Positions 41,041 to 55,710 of a stretch of DNA of 57,175 nucleotides are shown piece after piece. Each line of letters starts with the position of its first letter. Within the stretch, counting starts at the first letter, position 1. Where the stretch lies: contig JAURXY010000017.1 of assembly GCA_030654225.1 (NCBI GenBank), positions 1 to 57,175 on the forward strand, read 5' to 3'. A program made the translations under genes and the position numbers. The stretch comes from a bacterium (GTDB lineage Bacteria > Patescibacteriota > Minisyncoccia > Moranbacterales > UBA2206). The notes beneath the pieces were generated by a model, which had not been told where the DNA came from, did not search any database, and worked only from the letters and a program-made list of their open reading frames with translations.

Positions 41041-41049
41041 ACGCTTTAT

Positions 41050-41146
41050 CCGATGCGAAACTACGAATTAAATGCGAATCTACGAAAAAATATTCCTATT
41101 TTATACATGTTCGTAGATTCGTTCTTGTTTCGTTGTTTCGTATCGG
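41050..41146. repeat. 97-bp MITE-like repeat, copy 1
   Basis: CCGATGCGAAACTACGAATTAAATGCGAATCTACGAA...TTCGTAGATTCGTTCTTGTTTCGTTGTTTCGTATCGG. Confidence 0.88.
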
Positions 41147-41149
41147 TTA

Positions 41150-42330: not shown

Positions 42331-44298
42331 CTATGTTTGTTCTGCCACGCAAACTTCTTTGATTTCATTTTTCAGATCTCCCATTTCTTTTTTCAAAAAA
42401 CCATTCCATTCTTCCATTTCCATTATTTCCGGATTGATAATATTTTCCTCTTCCATTTCAACTGCACTTGAAACTTCTGGCCATTTAGTTCTCTCAGGAG
42501 CTTTGCCAAAAGCCATTTCAACCGTTTCGCGTGGACCAAAAAATTCTCGCTTGGCTGATTTGTTTTTTGGAGCGGAAATTTCAAATGAATTAACCACACC
42601 CTCATTTCCATAATCAAGATTTTTGTCCCAGCCATCGCTTTGAAAAAAACCGAATTGATCTTTCAAAATTTGATAGAGATAGGCTCGATCAGTTGCTACT
42701 GTGCTTTCTTTGATGAAATTATTCCAAATATAATAATCCAATTCTTTTTCATAGCCTTCCATTTTCCATTGCGAAATTACATTTTCCAAAGCTCGAATAG
42801 AAAGAACATTTTCTTGGAGAAAATATTTTGTCGAACGACCACCAGCTTCTTTGAAATAATAAGCCCCGTCGATTTCTTTGCCGGCAAAAACATTTTGAAT
42901 TAGCCGAGCTGATTTTGCCAAATTCCAGAGTTTTTGTTCACTGCCCTTGGGAATTTCCATATTCCCATTTTTGTCCATAATATCCGCTAAAATAAGATGA
43001 AATAATTCATTTTCCTTGCCTGCTGAGTCTTCTAAGCTACCCTCCGTTTCTTGTGGCAAATAATCATATTCAATTTTGTGAAGTCGAGAAAGAAAAGCTG
43101 GATCCATATCTTGCCGATCAACATATTTTTCTTGACCTTGATTCAAATTTCCCGTCATCATTATTCCAAAACCTTCCTTGATTTCAATTTCTCTTCCGCT
43201 ATCTTGTTGAATGTTTATCTTATCCCCAACTTTTCTGGTTAGAATATGATTTAAACTGATAAGTACTTCGTGCGGAATCGCATTGACTTCATCGATAATG
43301 ATTATTCTGCCTTCTTCCATCGCTTGATAGATTGGACCCATAAAAAAATCTGACACGGTTGAACCGGTTTTTTCATCTACTGTCAAAACCTGATGTCCAT
43401 AAAATTCCGCCTGCGAAATGTTTTTTGAACCGGAAATAATCAAAGCGCTTCCTTTCAATTCACATAATTTTTGTAATTCTAATTCTTTTACAGCTATTAA
43501 ATTATTCAAAGAACCGTCATCATATTTTTTTTCTTTCTTTTGCTTTATTAAAATGTCTTCTAGCTCTTGTTTTTTTTCTAATATATCCGGATTATTCTCT
43601 GAAATATATTTTTTTGCCGTATGCATAGCGAGTTCCGATTTTCCACTTCCAAGATGACCATAAATCAAAATTGGTTTGTTAGCTTGCAAATGGACTTCAA
43701 TATCTTCCATTTGCTCTTTGACATAATCAGTTTCCACAATTTTTCCATCCTCCAATTCTTTTTTATATTCTTCTAATTGCTTCAAGTGCAATCCGAAATA
43801 ACTTTCCGGGCTAAGTTCCAGTGATTTTTCTCGCAAATTTTGATTTTCACCCAATTCATCACGAACTTCATCCAACGCTTCCAGTTCTTCTCCACTAGGC
43901 GCTCCGTCAAAGCCTTTCAAAATTTCCACTTTTTCCAAAAGCAATCCTTTTCTTTCCATTTGAATAGCTTTTTCATAGCGAAGGGCTTTGATTAAATTTT
44001 CTTTTCGCAGTTCAACCAATTCTCGCTCCGGCGAATTTTCTTCACCCAAAATTTTCTCTGCTTCTGTTTCAAAAACATTTTCTCTTTCCAGCGCTTTTTT
44101 GGCGACTCGCCCTCTTTTGGATTTTTCCAAAATTTCTTCTTCGGATTTTTCTTGCCTTTCTTCTTTGGGAATTTTTGTTTCGCGATACATCATCTGTGAG
44201 GCTTTTTGGGCTTGCCGTTTGTTTTTTTCCGCCTCATTGACATTTTCTTCCACTTTTTTCCATTGTTCAAAATTTTGTGATTCCATATATTTTTTCAA
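42331..44298 (-). CDS. MoxR/dynein-like AAA+ ATPase
   Basis: Walker A LIYGHLGSGKSELAM; Walker B GRIIIIDEVNAIPHEVLISLNHIL; MMTGNLNQGQEKYVDRQDMDPAFLSRL; follows DGR target in operon orientation. Confidence 0.88.
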   Translation of the reverse strand: MKKYMESQNFEQWKKVEENVNEAEKNKRQAQKASQMMYRETKIPKEERQEKSEEEILEKSKRGRVAKKALERENVFETEAEKILGEENSPERELVELRKENLIKALRYEKAIQMERKGLLLEKVEILKGFDGAPSGEELEALDEVRDELGENQNLREKSLELSPESYFGLHLKQLEEYKKELEDGKIVETDYVKEQMEDIEVHLQANKPILIYGHLGSGKSELAMHTAKKYISENNPDILEKKQELEDILIKQKKEKKYDDGSLNNLIAVKELELQKLCELKGSALIISGSKNISQAEFYGHQVLTVDEKTGSTVSDFFMGPIYQAMEEGRIIIIDEVNAIPHEVLISLNHILTRKVGDKINIQQDSGREIEIKEGFGIMMTGNLNQGQEKYVDRQDMDPAFLSRLHKIEYDYLPQETEGSLEDSAGKENELFHLILADIMDKNGNMEIPKGSEQKLWNLAKSARLIQNVFAGKEIDGAYYFKEAGGRSTKYFLQENVLSIRALENVISQWKMEGYEKELDYYIWNNFIKESTVATDRAYLYQILKDQFGFFQSDGWDKNLDYGNEGVVNSFEISAPKNKSAKREFFGPRETVEMAFGKAPERTKWPEVSSAVEMEEENIINPEIMEMEEWNGFLKKEMGDLKNEIKEVCVAEQT

Positions 44299-44346
44299 AA
44301 AAAATTAAAAGATTTAATTCAAAATAAATTCTCAAACTCCCAAAGC

Positions 44347-45306
44347 CTAAGTTAATTCAAAACTACGGGAGAGACGGCACCCAAGGAAGACATCGGAAAG
44401 GCCGAGAGCATGCGCATCCACACAGAGCTGGCGAGCAACCGGATCCCAGTCAGCATCGACGACCCGAGAAGCAGAGCACGATTTTGGTAGCCAAGTCCAG
44501 CTTTTTTCATCTAAATGATTATTAGTTTTCTGAAAATATTGTCGTTGTAAAATTAAATATTCATTTAGAGATAGTCCCTCAGTTTTGATTTGATTTCCGC
44601 TTAACTCGAAATTAATTGGAATAGGCTGATTGTTTTCAACTCTTTCTTGGATTTGTTCTTCGCTTAAGCCAGAAAGTTGCATGATGTTTTTGCCGAGAGT
44701 TTGTTTGAGATATGGATTGGTGTTTTCATCTTTAAGAATATTTTGATCGGAATGTGTGAGAATGATTTTTGTTTTTTTACTTTCAGATGTTTTAGCTCCA
44801 GTAAAACCTCCGCCGTTTTTAAAATTATTTGATTGCCAAGTAGTAACATAGCCATCACCATCAGTCATTTTTTCATTGAGTTCTTCGCTGGTTGGCAGTT
44901 TTTTTGGAATAATGAGAATTTGGTCATAACCATACAGTGCCATTTCTTTTTGAATTTCAAGTTTGTGAAGTCTCAAAATTTGCTTGACTTCTTGTTCGTT
45001 GAATTCTGGAATTTTATGCTCTTTGTAGAATTTTTTTTGCCATTGGATTTCTTTTTCCAAATCAATTTCAATATCCTTGTCTTTGTTAGTTTCATTGGTT
45101 GTTTCGGGATTGATAAACTTTGCAGTGATCTTTTTGGGAGTGATTTTTTCTTTGAGAGCTTGCAATTTTTCTTCAATTTCTTTTCGAAGTTCTTTGGTTT
45201 TTTCGAGATTGCCTGATTTGATGGATTTTTCCAATTCAAATTCAAACTTTTGTTGGAGTTTTTCAAGTTCTTGGTATTCAGTTTTGAGGAGTTGACACTC
45301 AGACAT
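44347..45306 (-). CDS. DGR variable (target) protein 1, C-terminal CLec-like variable region
   Basis: C-terminus SWTWLPKSCSASRVVDADWDPVARQLCVDAHALGLSDVFLGCRLSRSFELT contains VR1; paralogue of 49217-50191. Confidence 0.95.
   Translation of the reverse strand: MSECQLLKTEYQELEKLQQKFEFELEKSIKSGNLEKTKELRKEIEEKLQALKEKITPKKITAKFINPETTNETNKDKDIEIDLEKEIQWQKKFYKEHKIPEFNEQEVKQILRLHKLEIQKEMALYGYDQILIIPKKLPTSEELNEKMTDGDGYVTTWQSNNFKNGGGFTGAKTSESKKTKIILTHSDQNILKDENTNPYLKQTLGKNIMQLSGLSEEQIQERVENNQPIPINFELSGNQIKTEGLSLNEYLILQRQYFQKTNNHLDEKSWTWLPKSCSASRVVDADWDPVARQLCVDAHALGLSDVFLGCRLSRSFELT
44359..44479 (-). repeat. DGR variable repeat VR1 (121 bp)
   Basis: Ungapped 121-bp alignment to TR; 17 substitutions, all at TR coding-strand adenines. 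Confidence 0.98.
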
Positions 45307-45307
45307 A

Positions 45308-47452
45308 TTATAATCTTACACCAGATAAGTATTTTTTCAAAGCTTGGGTTATGGCGGGAATCAAGTTGGCTATTTCCTCACCAATCACTTCTCCCTGTTT
45401 TTCTTTTCGCCCAGCATTCCACACTTCATCAAAAATCTTCTTATCTTCATCGCTAACTGCACCTATCTGAAAGGCTCTCTCTATCACTCCCGACTCAATC
45501 AATTTATCCACTGCCTTTTTTGAAGCCTCAGAATCAGAAGATCCGCCATCAGTTATTTCAAAAACAATTTCCATGGTCTTTTTCTGTGAAATTTTTTGCA
45601 AGTCTTCAGCTGAAAAAGATTTTTGAATTTCTCCCAACGCCTTATCGTCATAAGTATACCCAATAGTATTGTCCAGTTTTTCAAAAAGTTTAATCGTCTC
45701 TATTCGTTCATCACTTATCCTAGATTCTTTTCGCAATTTTTTTATCTTCTGGGCATCATCTCCAAAAATCCATACCTCCGTATCAACTTCCAACTTGGAT
45801 TTTGTTTGTGATCTCGTTCGATTGAGTTGAGTGTTGAATTCACGAAGTGATGACAAAATCAAAACTACACATTGTTGCAAAATATGCCGTTTTTTTTCAT
45901 CCATCGATCCAGACATATCGCCCACCAGTCTGATGTTGATTCTTTCCGGCATTTGCACCAGTTTTTCTTTGGAAACTATTCGTTCCATCACTCGAACATC
46001 TTCAAATTTTTTCTCTTGAATTTTCGGCCACTCCTCAATCACTTTTTGAACATTCATTTCCGTTCCGGTTTTGAAATATCCTTCTTTTTCTCTTTTCATT
46101 TCTCGACTGGAACCAAAAATAATTTTTTGCCAAAGTTTGGAAAGTTGTTGCAAGTATGGCTCGACTTGGGCTTCAATTTTTTTGAAATTTATAAACTTAT
46201 TTTGATCAATGCCATTTTTTTCGCACCAAGATTTGTCTATCTCTGCTTGTGCTTCATCAGCTTTTTCCTGTGGTGTTTTGTTTTCTTGCGCCTGCGCTTT
46301 GGCTTTTCTGGCCTCTGCCTCTTTTTTGTCATCTTCGTTTTTGTCCATCCAATTTTTGATATCCTCCTCGGAAATCTGATCAGGATTATTTTTGTCATAA
46401 TCTTGATACTCCTCATCAAACGGATTACCTGACTCTCCCTCGCCTTCTCCTTTTTGCGGTTGACCCTCTTGTTTCTCCGGTTTTTTCGGCTCCCATTCAT
46501 TCAAATCTTTGGCCAAAAGTTCTGCAAAAATCGGCTCCAATGTTTTTTGCAACACAAAATGTCTTTGACTAGCAAGAGTATCACGATTTTTTTTCGGCTT
46601 GATGAAACTATCCACAATTTCTTTGGGCGAATATTGCCTGCCTTGAAATTCAATTTTTCGCTTCATTATTTCTGCCACTTCTTCATTCAACACAACACTT
46701 TCATCTTTTACCATTTCTTCCCGCAATAATTTATAGACAAACTGAAGATGTCTTGGCAATGCGGAATAATCAGTTTTAGCAAAAAGTTTTTCTTGATATA
46801 GTCTTTTTGTTTCTTGCCCGCCATTGGCTTTTTCTTCAAAGGCGGGAGCTTTTCTGGCAACATTATTATTGTCATTTATATCATCAAAAATATTGTAGAA
46901 AGTATGGTGAATTTTATAAGCCGAGCGTTCCACCGCATTCATTGTTTTGCCATCTGGTTTTTTTGGATTGAGCGGTTTTTGTTTTTTCAAATTTTCCACA
47001 AATTCAGGATCACTTTGTCCATATTTCTCTTCCCATTTCTTCAAAATAATTCCACCAGTTTTTTTAGCTTGACTTCTGATATATTCAAAATTTTTCATTA
47101 CTCCACTCGCGTCTGCATCCAAATCACGAAAATGTTCCAATTCATGCAAACATCCCCATAATATCTGCTCTTTGGAAAAACCTTTTTCCGAAAACCACTT
47201 GCCATCCAAATTCACTTCACCTTTTTCCAAATCAATATAAAATCCATCAGAAATTTTAAAGTTTAGAGAAACATCTTTAGCAAAAGTCGTAAAAAATCTT
47301 CGATGCGAATCGACAAATTCTTGGGCTTCTTGGCGATATCTTTCTGCTTCCTGATTCATTTTCTCTTTTTCTTTTTCCGTTTCACCAAAAGATTCGTCTT
47401 TTTGCGTATCAATTTTTTTTATCGCTGGCAAATTTTCAATAAATTGTTTCAT
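45308..47452 (-). CDS. HExxH metallopeptidase-like + von Willebrand factor A domain protein
   Basis: LHELEHFRDLDAD (HExxH) in N-terminal part; MIDAS RLVGDMSGSMDEKKR in C-terminal part. Confidence 0.87.
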   Translation of the reverse strand: MKQFIENLPAIKKIDTQKDESFGETEKEKEKMNQEAERYRQEAQEFVDSHRRFFTTFAKDVSLNFKISDGFYIDLEKGEVNLDGKWFSEKGFSKEQILWGCLHELEHFRDLDADASGVMKNFEYIRSQAKKTGGIILKKWEEKYGQSDPEFVENLKKQKPLNPKKPDGKTMNAVERSAYKIHHTFYNIFDDINDNNNVARKAPAFEEKANGGQETKRLYQEKLFAKTDYSALPRHLQFVYKLLREEMVKDESVVLNEEVAEIMKRKIEFQGRQYSPKEIVDSFIKPKKNRDTLASQRHFVLQKTLEPIFAELLAKDLNEWEPKKPEKQEGQPQKGEGEGESGNPFDEEYQDYDKNNPDQISEEDIKNWMDKNEDDKKEAEARKAKAQAQENKTPQEKADEAQAEIDKSWCEKNGIDQNKFINFKKIEAQVEPYLQQLSKLWQKIIFGSSREMKREKEGYFKTGTEMNVQKVIEEWPKIQEKKFEDVRVMERIVSKEKLVQMPERINIRLVGDMSGSMDEKKRHILQQCVVLILSSLREFNTQLNRTRSQTKSKLEVDTEVWIFGDDAQKIKKLRKESRISDERIETIKLFEKLDNTIGYTYDDKALGEIQKSFSAEDLQKISQKKTMEIVFEITDGGSSDSEASKKAVDKLIESGVIERAFQIGAVSDEDKKIFDEVWNAGRKEKQGEVIGEEIANLIPAITQALKKYLSGVRL

Positions 47453-48464
47453 ATAAACATTCGCTTATTAGTTTGTTCTTCAAATTATACGAATTGCAAT
47501 GCTTGAGTAATCCGCAATATGAATTGAACACTTTGGAAAAATCTCGACTGGCAATTTCGCCCTTTTCAAATCTCTCCGCTGTATGAAAAATATTTTTCAA
47601 CATTCTTCTTTTTGTTTTCCGGCGAAGCAAAATCGCATCAGACAAAACGATATACCCGCAAAAATCAATCCCCCACTTCAATTTTCGGAAAGTTATTTTT
47701 TCTTTGGGAATTTTCAATAATAGTTTATTCTCCACGAATATTTTTGCTTTTCTGGCAAACTCAACCATCCTCTCTTTATTATAGTCTAAAATAACAAAAT
47801 CGTCATTATATCTCACATAGTGTCTAACTTTCAGCTTTTTTGCGACAAAATGATCCAGTTCATTGAGATAAATGTTAGCAAAAATCTGGCTGGTAATATT
47901 TCCCAGCGGAATGCTTTTGCTTGGCTTGCAATGAAAACTATCGATAATTTCCCAAATAATTTTTCTGATTCTTTCGTCGCAAATATTTTTGCAAATGATA
48001 TCGAAAAGAATGTTATGATCAATATTTTCAAAATATTTTCTCACATCCAGTTTCGCGCCGTAGCATCGACCAAAATTTCTTTTCGCAATATCTTGCGAAA
48101 AAATCTGCAGTTGCTTCACTGCGAGGTGTGATCCTTTCCCAACTCGCGAAGAATAGGAGTATTCTATGAAAATTGGCTCGAATGAGTCTGAAAGATAATC
48201 ATAAATAATTTGATGCACTATCCTATCCCTAATATCCGCTTTGTGAATATCGCGTTTTTTCGGATCTGAAATTCTAAAAAATTCATATGCCAGATGACGA
48301 TAATTTCCAGTACTCAAATCTCTATGCAACAAAAATAGATTGTCTTCAATATTTCTTTCAAAAAAAATCACTTCCTGCTTTTTCTCCTTACCCACCTTGA
48401 AAACCCGCCACGCGCGAAAGATGTTCTCGATATTAATTAATTTATCAAAATCATTATGAACCAT
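47436..48464 (-). CDS. DGR reverse transcriptase
   Basis: LDVRKYFENIDH, IPLGNITSQIFANIYLNELDHFV (LGxxxSQ variant typical of DGR RTs), VRYNDDFVIL (YxDD); start likely MVHNDFDKL (ORF extends to 48479). Confidence 0.97.
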   Translation of the reverse strand: MVHNDFDKLINIENIFRAWRVFKVGKEKKQEVIFFERNIEDNLFLLHRDLSTGNYRHLAYEFFRISDPKKRDIHKADIRDRIVHQIIYDYLSDSFEPIFIEYSYSSRVGKGSHLAVKQLQIFSQDIAKRNFGRCYGAKLDVRKYFENIDHNILFDIICKNICDERIRKIIWEIIDSFHCKPSKSIPLGNITSQIFANIYLNELDHFVAKKLKVRHYVRYNDDFVILDYNKERMVEFARKAKIFVENKLLLKIPKEKITFRKLKWGIDFCGYIVLSDAILLRRKTKRRMLKNIFHTAERFEKGEIASRDFSKVFNSYCGLLKHCNSYNLKNKLISECLYETIY

Positions 48465-48827
48465 AAAAATTATGAGCAAATAGAAATTCCAGTTATCAAA
48501 AAACTCTACGAATTATATAGACTGACACATTCTGTGATAATGAAATTTCCTAAACATGAAAAATACAGCTTGGGAGAAAAATTGGAATGTATTATCTTGG
48601 ATTCGCTGGAACTCATTATTTTTGGAAACTACCAGCCAAAAAATTTCAAAGAAGGATATATTCTCAAGGCTAATGCAAAAATAGAAATTTTGAAAATTCT
48701 ATTTCGCCTTGCTTTTTCAATCAAAGCTCTGGATGATCCGTCCTATCTCAAAACCCAACAAGCCTTGCAAGAAATCGGCAAAATGCTGGGTGGCTGGTTG
48801 AAATATTTGAAATCTGAGCAGAAATGA
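48456..48827 (+). CDS. avd: DGR accessory variability determinant (Avd-like four-helix-bundle protein)
   Basis: 123 aa, all-helical; IPVIKKLYELYRLTHSVIMKFPKHEKYSLGEKLECIILDSLELII...ILFRLAFSIKALDDPSYLKTQQALQEIGKMLGGWLKYL, resembling bAvd/23S-IVP-like family; located between RT and TR. Confidence 0.85.
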   Translation: MNHKNYEQIEIPVIKKLYELYRLTHSVIMKFPKHEKYSLGEKLECIILDSLELIIFGNYQPKNFKEGYILKANAKIEILKILFRLAFSIKALDDPSYLKTQQALQEIGKMLGGWLKYLKSEQK

Positions 48828-48947
48828 AAACTACGGGAGAGACGGCACCCAAGGTTGTCATTGGAATTGTCGAGATCATTCGCATTCACATTGAGCTGGC
48901 GATCATCCGGATTCCAGTTAGCATTGACGACCCGAGAAGCAGAGCAC
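48827..48947 (-). repeat. DGR template repeat TR (121 bp)
   Basis: Non-coding copy next to RT; coding-strand reading CSASRVVNANWNPDDRQLNVNANDLDNSNDNLGCRLSRSF is rich in AAY codons. Confidence 0.98.
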
Positions 48948-49150
48948 CGCCTCTAGAAAAATTTTTCTTTTTCAATTTCGAGCGTAGAAGTTTTTCCAAA
49001 TTTATCAGGACAACACCATTTGTCCGAAAGAAAAATTGTAGTTTTACATTAATGATTTTTCACTCACTCTCACACAATTTTTCGTTGTATGACTCTGGAA
49101 AAATAAAAAATCTGTTTCGGCAAACCACTGCTGAAAACTTTTTTCAACTG

Positions 49151-49156
49151 ATTATA
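49151..49156 (-). promoter_or_regulatory. Possible -10 box for the TR transcript
   Basis: TATAAT on minus strand ~200 nt upstream of TR; no strong -35. Confidence 0.3.
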
Positions 49157-49216
49157 CGAGCCGAGGGATAAAAAAATAAAAATTAATTTAAAAATAAATT
49201 CTCAAGCTCCCAAAGC

Positions 49217-50191
49217 CTAAGTTAATTCAAAACTACGGGAGAGACGGCACCCAAGGTTGCCATCGGAATGGCCGAGACCATACGCAGACACATCGAGCCG
49301 GCGAGCATCCGGATACCAGTGAGCAACGACGACCCGAGAAGCAGAGCACGATTTCGGAAGCCAAGTCCATCCGTTTTCATCTAAATGTTTTTGCTGATTG
49401 TTTTTTTCAAAATATTGCCGTTGGAAAATAAGATATTCATTGAGAGAAAGTCCTTCAGCTTGGATTTTTTTAGTTTGGTTATTGATTCGAGTTTCAAAAT
49501 TAATTGGGATCGGCTGGTTTGTTCGAATTTTTTCTTGGATTTCATCTTCAATTAAGTTGGAAAGTTGCATAATGTTTTTTCCAAGAGTTTGTTTGGCAAA
49601 AAAGTTAGCGTCTGGATTTTCATAAATATTTTGATCGGAATGTGTGAGAATGATTTTGGTTTTTCGGCTTTCGGTTGTGGCTCCGGCGAAACCTCCGCCT
49701 GTTTTGAAATCATTTGATTGATAAGTAGCGGTCGTATTTGGCATTGATTCAATCAGTGTCTGATTGAGGTTTTCCGTTATTGGCAAGTTTTCTGGAATAA
49801 TGAGAATTTGGTCATAACCATACATTGCCATTTCTTTTTGGATTTCAAACTTGTGAAGTCTCAAAATTTGCTTGACTTCTTGTTCGTTGAAACTTAACTT
49901 ATGTTCTTTATAGAAAGCTTTCTGCCATTGGATTTCTTTTTCCAAATCAATTTCAATATCCTTATCTTTGTTTTCAGTTTTGGTTGTTTCGGGATTGCTG
50001 AATTTTGCAATGATCTTTTTGGGAGTGATTTTTTCTTTGAGAGTCTGAAGCTTTTCTTCAATTTCTTGTTTCAATTCTTTGGTTTTTTCGAGATTGCCGG
50101 ATTTGATGGATTTCTCCAATTCCAACTCAAACTCTTGTTGGAGTTTTTCGAGTTCTTTGTATTCAGTTTTGAGGATGAGGCATCCGGACAT
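49217..50191 (-). CDS. DGR variable (target) protein 2, C-terminal CLec-like variable region
   Basis: C-terminus GWTWLPKSCSASRVVVAHWYPDARRLDVSAYGLGHSDGNLGCRLSRSFELT contains VR2; start MSGCLILKTEYKE parallels paralogue. Confidence 0.95.
   Translation of the reverse strand: MSGCLILKTEYKELEKLQQEFELELEKSIKSGNLEKTKELKQEIEEKLQTLKEKITPKKIIAKFSNPETTKTENKDKDIEIDLEKEIQWQKAFYKEHKLSFNEQEVKQILRLHKFEIQKEMAMYGYDQILIIPENLPITENLNQTLIESMPNTTATYQSNDFKTGGGFAGATTESRKTKIILTHSDQNIYENPDANFFAKQTLGKNIMQLSNLIEDEIQEKIRTNQPIPINFETRINNQTKKIQAEGLSLNEYLIFQRQYFEKNNQQKHLDENGWTWLPKSCSASRVVVAHWYPDARRLDVSAYGLGHSDGNLGCRLSRSFELT
49229..49349 (-). repeat. DGR variable repeat VR2 (121 bp)
   Basis: Ungapped 121-bp alignment to TR; 15 substitutions, all at TR coding-strand adenines. 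Confidence 0.98.
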
Positions 50192-50289
50192 AAGATTATT
50201 TCTCCAAACTAAATTCAATCAAGGATTTTTTGATGACTTCGTCATCTACTTCAAATCCTGGCAGATATTCAACTTTTTAGTTATATTTT

Positions 50290-50553
50290 TTAGGCGTATT
50301 TATCAAAATATAATGTGAAGTAATGGCTGGTTCTTTTACTATAATTATGTCTGCCAATTTTCGGCAGTTTGGATTTTTCGCGAAAAATTCGGGCCACTTC
50401 TTTGATGCCCATAATTTTGATGAGGGTTTGCACATCATCCCAATCGCCATAATTCAAAGTCGCCTCCACGATTGATTCTGGCTTGAGACTGTCATAATCC
50501 TTCACCCACCAAATCAAATCTTTTCTTTTTTTGATAAAATCATGAATTGTCAT
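50290..50553 (-). CDS. Small hypothetical protein
   Basis: 87-aa ORF MTIHDFIKKRKDLIWWVKDYDSL...; upstream of VP2 on the same strand. Confidence 0.6.
   Translation of the reverse strand: MTIHDFIKKRKDLIWWVKDYDSLKPESIVEATLNYGDWDDVQTLIKIMGIKEVARIFREKSKLPKIGRHNYSKRTSHYFTLYFDKYA

Positions 50554-53951: not shown

Positions 53952-55710
<1,759 letters not shown>

Follow-up and report, generated by a model that had tools for sequence, protein, structure and literature searches.

A diversity-generating retroelement in a Patescibacteria genome is part of a recurring module with MoxR and zincin-vWA genes

The DNA analyzed here (the window) comprises 57,175 nt, positions 1 to 57,175 of contig JAURXY010000017.1 in assembly GCA_030654225.1, and comes from a bacterium belonging to the candidate phyla radiation (CPR; Patescibacteriota, Minisyncoccia, Moranbacterales, UBA2206); it is contig C19 of a 1.0-Mb draft genome in 34 contigs. 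Between position 42331 and about 50191 it holds an island composed of a diversity-generating retroelement (DGR), a gene for a MoxR-type AAA+ ATPase and a gene for a protein with a zincin-like HExxH motif and a vWA domain (zincin-vWA protein). This island is a split version of a DGR, MoxR and zincin-vWA module that recurs in Patescibacteria. We consider it about 60% probable that the module acts as an intracellular sensor which is tuned by the DGR and linked to a putative metallopeptidase and a switch formed by AAA+ and vWA.

A scan for pairs of template repeat (TR) and variable repeat (VR) returned only two in the whole window, both with the same TR (48827-48947, minus strand, 121 nt). Its partners, also of 121 nt and on the minus strand, were VR1 (44359-44479) at the 3' end of the gene for target protein 1 (VP1) and VR2 (49229-49349) at the 3' end of the gene for target protein 2 (VP2). 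All 17 mismatches between TR and VR1 were located at TR adenines (hypergeometric P = 4.9e-15), as were all 15 between TR and VR2 (P = 6.1e-13) and all 15 differences between VR1 and VR2. The whole-window scan and these P values ruled out a chance similarity. Adenines occupy 25 of the 121 TR positions, always as the first or second base of a codon. None of the TR codons can turn into a stop codon by mutation, and the TR gives access to about 10^14.8 protein variants. As a candidate for the hairpin that initiates homing, a CTCCC/GGGAG stem was present after VR1 and VR2, not after TR, and was weak (z = -0.46 and -1.87). An Rfam scan gave no RNA family for the TR.

The two target genes differ considerably outside the repeats, with 81.3% nucleotide identity over 831 aligned sites, whereas VR1 and VR2 were identical at 96 of 96 non-adenine sites (P = 2.5e-9 if the VRs had diverged like the gene bodies). 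Both VRs have therefore received a TR copy since the genes duplicated, or long afterwards. A relative, genome G197, has its own TR and an RT 60% identical to that of the window. Between these two TRs, 23 of 117 sites differ; 16 of the differences are at codon position 3, and 23 of the 25 adenines are shared. As the TR itself is not translated, this pattern indicates that selection acts on its sequence once it has been transferred into the protein. A second VR of G197, on another contig, showed 18 of 18 mismatches at the adenines of its TR. Judged by these substitution patterns, the DGR has been used in the past, and the TR has rewritten both target genes at adenine-matched sites.

The DGR reverse transcriptase (RT; 47436-48464, minus strand) carries the motifs LGNITSQ and YNDD and was matched by Pfam RVT_1 (63 bits), NCBIfam and the PHROG RT family (301 bits). 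Its best PDB match was 8ub7 (E = 3.6e-33), which we take to be the RT of phage BPP-1; a group II intron RT reached only 6e-17. In a tree of 62 RTs, a quick build that has several long branches and lacks the published reference clades of Roux et al., the CPR DGR RTs grouped together (SH-aLRT 99) and were separate from phage DGR and group II RTs, and the window RT was placed together with RTs that likewise adjoin a zincin-vWA gene. PDB ranking, motifs and tree ruled out a group II intron or retron RT. The accessory protein Avd (48456-48827, plus strand) is encoded antisense between TR and RT. It was matched by the bAvd model with 60 bits (cut-off 40), and with 77.9 by the NCBIfam model DivGenRetAVD, just under its cut-off of 80. 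The ATG of the RT (48464) overlaps that of avd (48456) head to head. Since avd was antisense to the RT in all 38 RT-Avd pairs examined, commonly with overlapping or nearly touching starts, this orientation is the norm in the class and was rejected as a novelty.

Every gene of the island except avd lies on the minus strand, in the order VP2, TR, avd (antisense), RT, zincin-vWA, VP1, MoxR. The last four genes form a single close-packed run with gaps of -17, 1 and about 60 nt: RT, the zincin-vWA gene (45308-47452, 714 aa), the gene for VP1 (44347-45306, 319 aa) and that for MoxR (42331-44286). The MoxR open reading frame (ORF) extends up to a TTG at 44298, and the ATG at 44286 is probably its start. 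The gene for VP2 (49217-50191), the paralogue of VP1 with 324 aa, most likely starts at the ATG at 50191, not at the TTG at 50218, as suggested by the alignment with VP1. A preceding sequence-only reading had described all DGR components in the window, in this order, with the VRs at the 3' ends of two paralogous genes. Our analysis recovered the RT with its LGxxxSQ and YNDD motifs, grouping with DGR RTs and not with group II introns, an Avd-like protein above the bAvd cut-off, the one TR and both VRs, each of which stops 9 nt short of the stop codon of its target gene.

The MoxR protein contains the Walker A motif GHLGSGKS and the Walker B motif IIIIDE. In the zincin-vWA protein we found HELEH at residues 103-107, NxxxDxxxN at 187-195 (including D191) and, at 512, the metal-ion-dependent adhesion site (MIDAS) DMSGSM. 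The HExxH motif, D191 and the MIDAS were conserved in alignments of 12 and 21 members, excepting the HExxH of loci L019-L022. The label "zincin" is taken from these motifs because no Pfam peptidase model matched the protein. Its structure model (pLDDT 82.7) resembled the vWA domains of integrins and TRAP, NorD of the NorQD complex and the MIDAS domain of Rea1/MDN1, and its vWA relatives matched VWA_CoxE. Hydropathy predicted no transmembrane segment in VP1, VP2, the vWA protein or MoxR, and VP1 and VP2 are apparently soluble, cytoplasmic proteins as far as their sequences tell. The C-terminus of the target proteins had been called CLec-like; this could not be confirmed, as neither a PDB profile search, nor hhalign against Mtd and the Alteromonas target, nor Foldseek linked VP to the C-type lectin fold, and the label reflects a resemblance. 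The VP profile of the window aligned in two pieces with the C-terminal part of the MoxR fusion of genome G182 (from position 69, gap at about 204-241).

Among 384 genomes of the class, 159 contained a match to the DGR RT, 18 a match to MoxR and 14 a match to the zincin-vWA protein, the latter mostly beside a DGR RT and MoxR. When GTDB genomes were scanned with a single vWA motif as the key, 21 loci were obtained, nearly all in CPR bacteria, with Magasanikbacteria as the closest named group. After removal of duplicates we obtained 29 distinct zincin-vWA loci, including the window; RT and target counts refer to the stretch examined at each locus. A DGR RT was present at 18 of these 29 loci, and a further 7 had a DGR-type target but no RT. 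The others were L024/L113, which have LRR-like (leucine-rich-repeat-like) proteins, L106 of Deltaproteobacteria, and the fragments L108 and L119. L106 (UBA5758) was the only non-CPR relative of the zincin-vWA protein, and no RT, TR or MoxR was found nearby.

The arrangement of the module varies between loci. Targets on both sides of the RT were also observed in L116, L117 and, over two contigs, G197. L116 has the order of the window (VP-TR-avd-RT-vWA-VP), and G197 carries VP-TR-avd-RT-vWA on one contig and VP-MoxR-trxB-malic enzyme on another. L111 and L122 show VP-MoxR-VP-vWA-VP, and their TR and RT are encoded on the opposite strand; in L019, L021 and L022 the TR is inverted, and TR and RT are opposite in strand to two or three VRs. 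A VR at the end of the MoxR gene itself was detected in contig C15 of the window's own genome, in G063 and G182, and in L117, L118 and L121. The vWA-MoxR loci L016 and L024/L113, which have no RT, encode paralogues with a common N-terminal part whose ends, read by eye, are VR-like, LRR-like or helical-repeat. In G127, VP and MoxR were kept, while RT, TR and vWA were not at the locus. G061:C3 (L020/L114) contains three adenine-variable VRs, for which no TR was found in the whole G061 genome, and its DGR module seems to have lost its template. The MoxR/VP part can therefore outlive the DGR, as the arrangements in G127 and G061 indicate.

An ordinary CPR DGR might have landed by chance beside an unrelated vWA/MoxR pair. 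In favor of this explanation, neither vWA nor MoxR was present in any of 32 loci chosen by RT similarity alone, which were the top RT matches rather than a random sample and from which vWA-linked loci had already been taken out. However, simple arithmetic with about one RT per Mb gives a chance of a few percent for an RT near a given gene, far from 18 of 29. In addition, the vWA-linked RTs cluster on the tree (3 changes, compared to 15.3 in shuffles), and gene fusions of MoxR and VR exist. We disfavor a chance neighborhood as very improbable; the linkage is rare per DGR and yet a recurring, non-random module. An earlier description of the layout as unusual holds in part: antisense avd and targets flanking the RT are widespread or recurrent and do not make it so, whereas the vWA/MoxR linkage is indeed uncommon among DGRs.

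The same combination recurring in many related bacteria suggests a system for recognition inside the cell whose sensor can change. In the mechanism that we propose, RT-Avd would reverse-transcribe TR RNA, making errors at adenines, and the product would then home into VR1 or VR2. VP1 and VP2 would thereby combine a constant N-terminal part with a binding face that can take as many as about 10^15 forms, and may serve as changeable sensors for the MoxR AAA+ motor and its vWA partner. Binding of a ligand might alter the MoxR-vWA assembly, as in a remodeling switch, and the HExxH domain fused to vWA could be switched on or directed as an effector peptidase. In relatives, the sensor would be fused to MoxR, or a non-DGR module (LRR-like or helical repeats) would be placed on the common N-terminal part. 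The most likely purpose would be to recognize a changing molecule inside the cell, for instance from an invader or from a host cell. More tentatively, and with clearly less confidence than in the sensor itself, the module could represent an anticipatory intracellular immunity of CPR bacteria resembling that of nucleotide-binding leucine-rich repeat (NLR) proteins, in which a constant MoxR/zincin-vWA chassis works with interchangeable sensors, which may be of VR type, LRR-like or made of helical repeats and are mounted on N-terminal adaptors that they have in common; one sensor class would be hypermutated by the DGR ahead of the threat.

Several observations weigh against the sensor mechanism. 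The vWA proteins of L019-L022 read HELMAH, that is HExxxH, one residue longer, and judging from this motif the group may have lost peptidase activity. Defence-system families gave no match except generic RTs and a weak mad8 match for MoxR, and L116 had no recognized MoxR in the stretch examined. The structure model of the VP was of low confidence (pLDDT 60) and had no PDB match. Ligand, protease activity and order of signaling stand as proposals.

Two further explanations assign the variable proteins another task. The DGR might diversify surface proteins with which an epibiont attaches to its host, MoxR and vWA being the chaperones that fold or place them. CPR DGRs are usually proposed to mediate host-cell interaction (PMC8867640; PMC10907252), and MoxR-vWA pairs are known as chaperones, for example NorQ/NorD (PMC9976466), whose NorD is matched by the vWA fold. 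However, we regard this as unlikely: no transmembrane segment was predicted in the VPs, MoxR or the vWA protein, and in several relatives MoxR itself carries the VR domain, so that the variable face belongs to the motor and not to its cargo. Even less likely, in our opinion, is a machine for maturation or quality control of another complex, in which the VPs would be variable substrate adaptors and the DGR would tune the choice of substrate instead of sensing invaders. The VWA_CoxE matches speak for such a role, as does L106, which lacks a DGR and whose neighbors, on provisional inspection by eye, look like a CoxE-type setting. Nevertheless, no cofactor-enzyme genes were seen beside the CPR modules, and swappable sensor modules suit recognition better than a single fixed client.

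The DGR of the window resembles that of Bordetella phage BPP-1 in having an RT, Avd, one TR and a VR at the 3' end of the target. It differs in its antisense avd, which is on the same strand in BPP-1, in its two targets, which are unrelated to Mtd at the sequence level, and in its location on a bacterial chromosome. The pairing of MoxR and vWA is shared with the chaperones NorQ/NorD and RavA/ViaA, although the window module additionally has a variable sensor. To our knowledge, neither NorQ/NorD nor RavA/ViaA has an HExxH domain. The CPR DGRs that belong to RT clade 2 (Roux et al., 2021, PMC8144416), whose targets usually have no recognizable domain, occur in the same bacteria and are probably of the same DGR type. 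Dore et al. (PMC10907252) state, with reference to Paul et al. (2017), that the most frequent target architecture in CPR bacteria is a CLec domain joined to an AAA ATPase, and the genes listed above with a VR on MoxR match it; unlike in these fusions, the window targets are separate from MoxR and accompanied by a zincin-vWA gene. We found no description of such a zincin-vWA partner of CPR DGRs in the literature searched, which left out most subscription journals.

Closest in composition are the MoxR-vWA systems with DGR-variable sensors of cyanobacteria and other multicellular bacteria (Kaur et al., 2020, PMC7159879; Dore et al., 2024, PMC10907252), which likewise unite a MoxR ATPase, a vWA domain with MIDAS and a DGR-variable sensor in one cluster. 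Those ternary conflict systems usually carry the variable domain on the vWA protein itself and include a VMAP or inactive STAND (iSTAND) partner (PMC7159879; PMC10907252). In the window, by contrast, a protein of its own bears the variable domain (in relatives, this or MoxR), a metallopeptidase domain, assigned by its motifs, is fused N-terminally to vWA, and the host is a CPR bacterium. No Pfam match to VMAP or iSTAND was obtained among the seven proteins of the block, the only ones searched. As no such partner was found and the variable domain is not on the vWA protein, we regard the window module as working like those systems but do not file it as one of them.

The module is inserted between trxB and the malic enzyme gene, within a run (uppS-trxA-trxB-malic enzyme-yjbQ-pcm-mltG) that is kept without the module across the order; a genome of the same genus has no module and a 224-aa ORF between these two genes. 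In G127 and G197 the module lies between trxA and trxB, only the trxB side being on the contig in G197. A phage origin was ruled out, since viral contigs contained no VP relative and the flanks are chromosomal housekeeping genes. In the interval between trxB and VP2, an 87-aa ORF (50290-50553) had a weak DUF6922 match, and no partner gene was identified. A short dispersed repeat, CGAATTAAATGCGAATCTACGAA, is present at 41064-41086 and 55628-55650 and in about 30 copies in the genome (≤3 mismatches); one copy sits in a palindromic element (41047-41149; 47-nt arms, 77% complementary). The same genome (G000) harbors a second DGR (L013, G000:C15:1-16000) with a vWA fragment, a VP, a MoxR-VP fusion of 979 aa, a TR and an RT, a third at a contig end (L028, G000:C18) in whose TR/VR pair 24 of 25 mismatches are at A, and a truncated RT (L027, G000:C21).

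CPR bacteria are rich in DGRs. By gene fusion and conserved neighborhood, the module described here ties a subset of their targets to a MoxR/zincin-vWA machine, and this linkage offers a concrete, testable function, namely intracellular sensing coupled to proteolysis. The theme of a DGR joined to MoxR-vWA, described for multicellular bacteria, is thereby extended to ultra-small ones.

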